Of a stretch of 23,619 nt of DNA, positions 19,413 to 22,200 are shown piece by piece. The notes beneath the pieces were generated by a model that was not told where the DNA came from, did not search any database, and worked only from the letters and a program-made list of their open reading frames with translations. The number at the start of each line of letters is the position of its first letter. The stretch's first letter is position 1. A program made the position numbers and the translations under genes. The stretch covers positions 1 through 23,619 of IMG/VR virus record IMGVR_UViG_3300017749_000134, one strand, 5' to 3'. This DNA is from a virus.

Positions 19413-19690
19413 TAGTTGCAATTCCAACGACGTAATGCTTTGTTGATCTTAGAGTCTGGATCTCTTGCAGTTTTTGCAGAGGTTAGTCTCTTCTTCATAC
19501 CTTTCATCCTGGAGCAGAATGAAGATCTGCGCTTAGCATCTTTAGATCCCTTCTTAATTTTAGAAGGTTTAGTAGTAACTGCGGTCTTAAGTTTAGAACC
19601 TGGATTCTCTCTCTTATAAGCATTTACTGTGCTTTGACTTAAACCATCAGTCTTATCTTTGCGATTGGCTTTTTGCCAATCTTCATCTAC
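19412..19690 (-). CDS. Frameshift-encoded C-terminal extension (DUF6321-like basic domain)
   Basis: An open frame of 92 codons (VDEDWQKANRKDKTDG to ALRRWNCN) with strong family character: the segment from YKRENPGSKLKTAVTTKPSK to SFCSRMKGMKKRLTSAK is a conserved cyanophage domain I associate with DUF6321. It has no ATG, GTG or TTG between the preceding in-frame TGA and the conserved region, so it cannot start alone in the usual way. It is in the -1 frame relative to the upstream 689-codon gene and begins directly at that gene's GGGAAAG heptamer. The simplest reading is a 781-residue fusion made by programmed -1 frameshifting. A sequencing error is the main alternative. Confidence 0.78.
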   Translation of the reverse strand, partial: VDEDWQKANRKDKTDGLSQSTVNAYKRENPGSKLKTAVTTKPSKIKKGSKDAKRRSSFCSRMKGMKKRLTSAKTARDPDSKINKALRRWNCN

Positions 19691-19712
19691 TTTCCCAGGC
19701 GGTCTTCCTCCT
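19663..19712 (-). promoter_or_regulatory. Programmed -1 ribosomal frameshift cassette
   Basis: Three elements are in canonical order on the minus strand. AGGAGG (19707-19712) lies exactly 10 bases before the heptamer G-GGA-AAG (19690-19696), which is in register with the 689-codon frame. The zero-frame stop TAG follows immediately. After an 8-base spacer a perfect 7-bp hairpin GATTGGC/GCCAATC (19675-19681 with 19663-19669, AAAAA loop) follows. GGGAAAG is the heptamer used by phage lambda G-GT, and the upstream Shine-Dalgarno at 10 bases copies dnaX. Confidence 0.8.
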
Positions 19713-21777: not shown

Positions 21778-22200
21778 CTATTTATCTTCTTGAATATTTT
21801 TAGTTTGTGCCTTAAGCATTTTAGATAACTCTGCCGTAGATCCAAAAAACATCGCATTATTTGTTACGTTTGTTGGACTTTTTTCATCAGCATCCAGATC
21901 CTTCAATTTCTTTTGCAAATCGATTAATTTATCTGTTGCATCTGCAACGTTTTTGATTAATTGTCCAACAACTTCATACTGTCTTGGTTGACCCCCATCT
22001 TGAGCAAGTTCCAACGCACAATCCAACGCCTCTTGTCCCTTCTCAATGATTGAATAGAGGTTACCTCTCGTATATTCATAATCTTTAGTTACGTCTTCAG
22101 ATTCCGAAGGTTTTTTTAGTTCTTTCTTTTCTGGTTCTGGTTTTACAATTTCTGCTTCAACATCAAAAGTATTATTAAGATCATTAAATTTATCTTTCAT
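21778..22200 (-). CDS. gp16: Terminase small subunit gp16
   Basis: The 140-residue product has the gp16 core KDYEYTRGNLYSIIEKGQEALDCALELAQDGGQPRQYEVVGQLIKNVADATDKLIDLQKKLKDLD, a helical coiled-coil oligomerisation domain, and acidic/basic tails of about 35 residues on each side. T4 gp16 is 164 residues. It forms a ring that regulates gp17 and recognises DNA for packaging initiation. It follows gp15 with 2 bases between. The next gene downstream is the mosaic protein, not gp17. Confidence 0.92.
   Translation of the reverse strand: MKDKFNDLNNTFDVEAEIVKPEPEKKELKKPSESEDVTKDYEYTRGNLYSIIEKGQEALDCALELAQDGGQPRQYEVVGQLIKNVADATDKLIDLQKKLKDLDADEKSPTNVTNNAMFFGSTAELSKMLKAQTKNIQEDK
21779..21786 (-). promoter_or_regulatory. 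Late promoter octamer GATAAATA before the mosaic protein gene
   Basis: GATAAATA on the minus strand, 23 bp before the ATG at 21756. It overlaps the stop codon of gp16. Confidence 0.58.

Follow-up and report, generated by a model that had tools for sequence, protein, structure and literature searches.

Probable -1 ribosomal frameshifting appends DUF6321 to a mosaic virion-associated protein of T4-like cyanophages

Introduction

The window analyzed here, a 23,619-nt stretch of DNA, is an IMG/VR virus record with T4-like genes for portal, tail tube, sheath, the large and small terminase subunits and gp15. On its minus strand a gene of 689 codons ends at a stop codon, and a conserved domain lies beyond this stop in a -1 frame that lacks a nearby start codon. 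This raises the question of how, if at all, the domain is translated. The original prediction proposed a complete -1 programmed frameshift signal that joins both frames. The junction was therefore analyzed in the window and in related phages with respect to its signals, its recurrence and the selection acting on the downstream frame. Judging from these sequences, it is quite probable that a functional -1 programmed ribosomal frameshift adds DUF6321 to the virion-associated mosaic protein, with GAGG and a local hairpin probably helping.

Results

The junction in the window

The mosaic gene upstream of the junction (minus strand, 21756-19687) encodes 689 amino acids with the C-terminus EEEDRLGK. 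Direct reading showed that it ends with ..GAG GAG GAA GAC CGC CTG GGA AAG TAG, as had been described. The slippery heptamer G GGA AAG, read in the zero frame as CTG GGA AAG, is located at 19696-19690 in the predicted X_XXY_YYZ register and is followed directly by the zero-frame stop TAG (19689-19687). It is the sole in-register slippery heptamer within the ORF overlap, and entry to the -1 frame is possible only between a TGA approximately 20 nt upstream and the TAG. Two potential stimulators are present at the distances given in the original prediction. A Shine-Dalgarno(SD)-like element, AGGAGG (19712-19707), ends exactly 10 nt 5' of the heptamer, and a perfect 7-bp hairpin, GATTGGC-AAAAA-GCCAATC (19681-19663), lies 8 nt 3' of it. 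The hairpin, which encodes DWQKANR, has a folding energy of -11.2 kcal/mol and a z-score of -2.7 versus dinucleotide shuffles.

The -1 frame (minus strand, 19693-19412) comprises a lysine codon and 92 further codons and ends at a TAA (19414-19412). The conserved domain noticed in this frame was identified as DUF6321 (PF19846), with a Pfam E-value of 1e-14 and a score of 55.3 bits versus a curated cut-off of 28.5. An AlphaFold model of the domain is helical, without strands, and of moderate confidence (pLDDT 69). The description of the frame as start-less holds for its first part, as no ATG, GTG or TTG occurs before codon 62, but ATGs are present inside the domain at codons 62 and 65.

The heptamer as such is not rare, since GGGAAAG occurs twice in the window irrespective of frame versus 2.25 expected occurrences. 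In coding register, the 5905 codons of the window contain 43 X_XXY_YYZ heptamers of any kind and one GGGAAAG. The chance of finding any such heptamer in the 8-codon overlap is about 5%, that of finding GGGAAAG about 0.1%. On sequence grounds, the evidence beyond chance is the recurrence in related phages rather than the local signal.

The mosaic gene and its homologues

The modules of the 689-aa gene match phrog_3477 and phrog_727. The gene sits between the terminase small subunit gene (21778-22200) and DUF6321, between the small and large terminase subunits in the T4-like neck/terminase region. Its homologues are T4-GC119-type genes located between gp16 and gp17. In the T4-like cyanophage isolates P-TIM68, DSL-LC02, S-SCSM2R, S-H34, S-CREM2, P-HM2, P-SSM2 and S-SCSM1, DUF6321 forms the C-terminus of one uninterrupted mosaic ORF, which is labeled T4-GC119 in the two records bearing that label. 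The DUF6321-carrying ORF137 of S-CREM2 (108049-109521) has been found in purified virions by mass spectrometry, with 4 unique peptides (PMC10665884). The designation as a virion gene is therefore supported for this homologue, which represents the in-frame form, at a low coverage of 4.1%. In Cyanophage P-RSM3 (L176; HQ634176.1, about 107746-109154) the DUF6321 gene is unannotated, with the locus tag CPQG_00135 missing, and at least two breaks interrupt its frame. These are probably sequencing errors or decay, and the broken gene was left out of the analysis.

The stop of the DUF6321 frame overlaps the ATG of the next gene (TAATG), which encodes 104 amino acids (minus strand, 19412-19098). The same stop overlaps or abuts the next ATG (TAATG/TGATG) in nearly all homologous loci. 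In the window, this arrangement suggests that translation of the next gene may be coupled to ribosomes ending the -1 frame, and its presence in nearly all loci is consistent with ribosomes getting to the DUF6321 stop. The small gene itself (..LRDWFGKSRSSDGKPGWVQ..) is similar (E=5e-54) to an internal segment of phrog_727, the mosaic family also matched by the 689-aa gene; modules of one family are thus split across neighboring genes in the window.

Recurrence of the junction

The same out-of-frame junction was found in at least 17 other IMG/VR contigs from other metagenomes, giving 12 distinct sequences including that of the window. The scans relied on exact patterns, and the contig counts for this signal (class 1) and for the second signal described below are lower bounds. 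Every class-1 junction found reads GGGAAAGTAG and continues into a -1 frame that stays open for 92-292 codons and ends with DUF6321. An alignment in relatives had been proposed as a check, and in all 12 distinct sequences both the heptamer and the TAG are kept.

Among the 17 other contigs, nine join DUF6321 directly and eight join a different -1 module, KV[DE]EKLNIKKADMG..SDAPQFKGKSKEKRRQMAIAAKL.., from which DUF6321 is reached in the same frame 185-292 codons on. Upstream of the site four kinds of modules occur, ending in ..K[VA]GYKMA[ST]EEEDRLGK, ..EKFLQ..KKEEDRLGK, ..KKEQFEGEDRLGK and ..SDWRSDLEDDRLGK. The four upstream and two downstream module types are linked by a shared cassette of approximately 30 nt, GAGGAAGAyCGCCTGGGAAAGTAGAwGAA, and GAGGAAGACCGCCTGGGAAAGTAG was named as the PCR target for the junction. 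An alternative in-frame state is represented by L020/L096 and L097, in which the zero frame continues uninterrupted from the same DRLGK into a module homologous to the second downstream one. The part of the cassette 5' of the slip site (19712-19693 in the window; also in L013, L014 and L137) spells an AT-hook-like (K)RGRPPGK when read in the -1 frame. An ancestral in-frame KRGRPPGK was considered and rejected as probably coincidental, as EEDRLGK is zero-frame in the three in-frame loci and upstream substitutions follow the zero frame.

In-frame relatives are the majority. A same-frame start upstream of the domain is lacking in only a handful of the 80 best-ranking matches to DUF6321 in IMG/VR, and seven of these represent the junction described here. 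The closest in-frame relative, L018, shares 96% DNA identity within the domain, and the DUF6321 tree shows in-frame forms intermixed with out-of-frame ones. The original prediction had also envisaged relatives in which the domain has its own ATG and the heptamer is lost; instead, the heptamer was kept, and the forms that join DUF6321 directly harbor no ATG, GTG or TTG before codon 62. All sense-strand junctions of the sought kind in the fetched loci of this gene are -1, and +1 junctions were not found among these loci. In a control survey, 0 of 80 homologues of another DUF6321 subtype showed a start-less or frameshifted junction in this gene.

A second slippery signal in the gene family

A second signal (class 2) was detected in at least 31 IMG/VR contigs (e.g. 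L071:1694-1720, L052:2276-2302 and L167). It consists of the heptamer A AAA AAG, a 7-nt spacer, a hairpin of 9-12 bp, which is present in all 31 contigs, and a stop 15 nt after the heptamer. The sequence encodes GKRYPNCV followed by K K S K K K K and the stop (GTA AAA AAG TC[CA] AAG AAG AAG AAG TAA). The corresponding -1 frame, KV[QK]EEEV.., ends in DUF6321 and is open for 225-577 codons where the contig is long enough. An exception is L168, which has the heptamer, but whose -1 frame is shut after 34 codons with DUF6321 located further on, due to a second break or an error. In comparison with the in-frame isolate S-CAM22 (AAGAAAGAAGAAGTAGAA), class 2 seems to have lost one base in the KKEEV linker, a loss that would be compensated by the upstream heptamer. 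The in-frame relatives L055, L057 and L074 also possess the class-2 hairpin, which indicates that the hairpin is older than the frameshift.

Cultured phages with either of the two signals were not found in the collection, and a blastn search of the collection with the class-1 cassette gave chance matches only. L257 was rejected as a further carrier of the cassette, as it shares a 19-mer by chance in an unrelated gene.

Selection on the -1 frame

In the five distinct junctions that join DUF6321 directly, the -1 frame after the site has a pN/pS of 0.08, whereas the two other frames have values of 1.16 and 1.19. The other downstream module has a pN/pS of 0.07 in its first 48 codons and of 0.05 in its DUF6321 part. 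In the direct forms, 14 sites vary ahead of the first possible start codon, and 10 of them are third positions of the -1 frame (P=0.004); the first 48 codons of the other module show 17 third-position sites among 21 (P=1e-5). Upstream of the site, zero-frame third positions vary most in all four groups. Thus, the phase of constraint switches at the cassette, and the start-less -1 frame evolves under purifying selection. Since both forms are intermixed in the tree, some of the substitutions may stem from in-frame ancestors, and in-frame phases may account for part of the purifying signal.

This last point bears on the alternative of an inherited broken junction, in which an out-of-frame recombination severed DUF6321 and the conservation of the now untranslated domain is a relic of recent in-frame ancestors. 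DUF6321 does move by recombination, and the prevailing in-frame homologues, such as L018, nest among the out-of-frame forms. However, 12 distinct sequences have retained the junction with its heptamer and stop, the low pN/pS of the -1 frame includes a module unique to frameshift forms, the junctions in this gene are all -1 and none is +1, and a second heptamer-based class exists. A broken junction is therefore considered unlikely.

Stimulatory elements and access to the downstream frame

GAGG is located exactly 10 nt upstream of the heptamer in 10 of the 12 distinct class-1 junctions, but not in the 'FEGEDRLGK' context. It is kept at this distance even where the codons differ (LEDD: GGAGGATGAT). 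Hence the spacing of the SD-like element is conserved in most of these sequences, whereas the full AGGAGG hexamer shrinks to GAGG. The hairpin is kept within the group that joins DUF6321 directly, but it is encoded by DWQKxNR, occurs in many in-frame relatives and is absent with the other downstream module, where junctions have weak stems only. It was consequently rejected as a conserved driver. Of the class-1 signal, heptamer and stop would be conserved, and the SD probably as well.

An SD-like AGGAGG close to a TAG that could permit coupled re-initiation would also suit a separate translation of the DUF6321 frame, either by re-initiation or from a non-canonical start beside the TAG, and the other downstream module does have an ATG at codon 13. 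In the window, however, codon 62 is preceded by no ATG, GTG or TTG. The ATG after the TAG is zero-frame and is lost in L014 (TAGAAG), and conservation begins directly after the heptamer. Separate translation is thus very unlikely.

Transcriptional slippage normally requires longer runs than three, and the runs in GGGAAAG are only three long. Although slippage of the polymerase rather than the ribosome is a known alternative route to such fused products (PMC5009743), it has hardly any probability as their origin here. A better fit for this route is a run of 13 A in L101 and L102 (around L101:1411). It is located at EVEKKKNL-stop, is accompanied by a start-less -1 ORF of 622 codons and occurs in these two contigs only; it may reflect slippage at the level of transcription or of the ribosome, or a mistake in the assembly.

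A sequencing or assembly indel in the window contig, to which relatives with a single uninterrupted frame had been thought to point, can be dismissed: such relatives exist and are the majority, but they do not imply an indel, as the same junction recurs in at least 17 further contigs next to different neighbors, with substitutions mostly at third positions of the upstream frame before and of the -1 frame after the site, and such junctions occur in 0 of 80 control homologues. Single cases do resemble errors. L060 (position 1300) is a lone contig with a -1 break before DUF6321 and a stop without the shared signal, which is likely an indel error.

Discussion

The interpretation of the junction as a frameshift site is supported by its recurrence across module combinations (12 distinct sequences), by the purifying selection on the start-less -1 frame, by the 0 of 80 in the control and by the second signal. 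According to the proposed mechanism, most ribosomes would halt at the TAG and yield the 689-residue protein. A minority would slip on G GGA AAG one base back to GGG AAA and read 92 more codons, which would result in a 781-residue protein with DUF6321. The upstream SD-like GAGG and, in the context of the window, the downstream hairpin would probably assist. In this rapidly recombining mosaic family DUF6321 is usually in frame; here and in the relatives with an out-of-frame junction, the slippery cassette would restore the fusion. We infer that ribosomes shift at this site with a certain efficiency and that both products are used, and the 781- and 689-residue products may be made at a fixed functional ratio, as originally proposed. 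The 689-residue form may have a function by itself, or the shift may just make good an out-of-frame junction. More tentatively, the cassette of approximately 30 nt could possibly serve as an exchangeable hinge, which offers homology for the shuffling of modules together with a low, translationally set DUF6321 dose, such dose control having arisen at least twice (G_GGA_AAG and A_AAA_AAG).

Frameshifting adds C-terminal domains to several phage proteins, including the Ig-like domains of T3 and Lactobacillus phage A2, T7 gp10A/10B and proteins of the Listeria phages A118, A500 and PSA (PMC5009743). Atkins and colleagues described that chance determines whether a shuffled Ig-like domain ends up in frame or out of frame, and that frameshifting is selected in the out-of-frame cases (PMC5009743). 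The junction described here resembles these systems in the putative C-terminal extension of a virion protein by a -1 (or +1) shift near the ORF end, and in that relatives differ in whether the same domain is in frame or out of frame. It differs in the domain, as DUF6321 is not Ig-like according to Pfam and its helical AlphaFold model, and in the gene, which is a mosaic gp16-gp17 gene of T4-like cyanophages and does not encode a major capsid or tail protein. A further difference is that the slippery cassette itself lies between exchanged modules of four upstream and two downstream types.

The heptamer was correctly recognized in the original prediction as the slippery site of lambda G/GT, G_GGA_AAG (PMC7618472), and in both cases it is positioned near the ORF end for a -1 extension. 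However, the window gene is unrelated, its stop follows directly after the heptamer, and it is located between the terminase subunits, whereas tail-assembly chaperone G/GT genes are flanked by those for the major tail protein and the tape measure. Neither gpG nor gpGT of lambda is present in virions, in contrast to the homologue of the window protein. With an SD 10 nt upstream, a heptamer and a downstream stem-loop, the window also resembles a dnaX-type signal. In some bacteria the stop of dnaX is likewise situated directly after the shift site, and the long form is made by the shift. The heptamer of the window differs from the A_AAA_AAG of dnaX, which occurs only in class 2, where the hairpin layout is dnaX-like as well, and not every relative retains both the SD and the hairpin.

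Papers on DUF6321 or on cyanophage frameshifting were not found in the open-access literature. Apparently new aspects are the gene and the group of phages concerned, the presence of two independent signals, and one slippery cassette that is used repeatedly between modules that are exchanged. Gene callers miss the DUF6321 part of these genes and predict the truncated protein alone. The junction would be a further case of recoding in T4-like phages, here in those of the main photosynthetic bacteria of the ocean. It also provides a natural experiment: most phages encode the fusion to this domain in a single frame, and others would attach it via a slippery site. Provided that both products are used, translation would control the DUF6321 stoichiometry of the particle in some lineages, but not in others.
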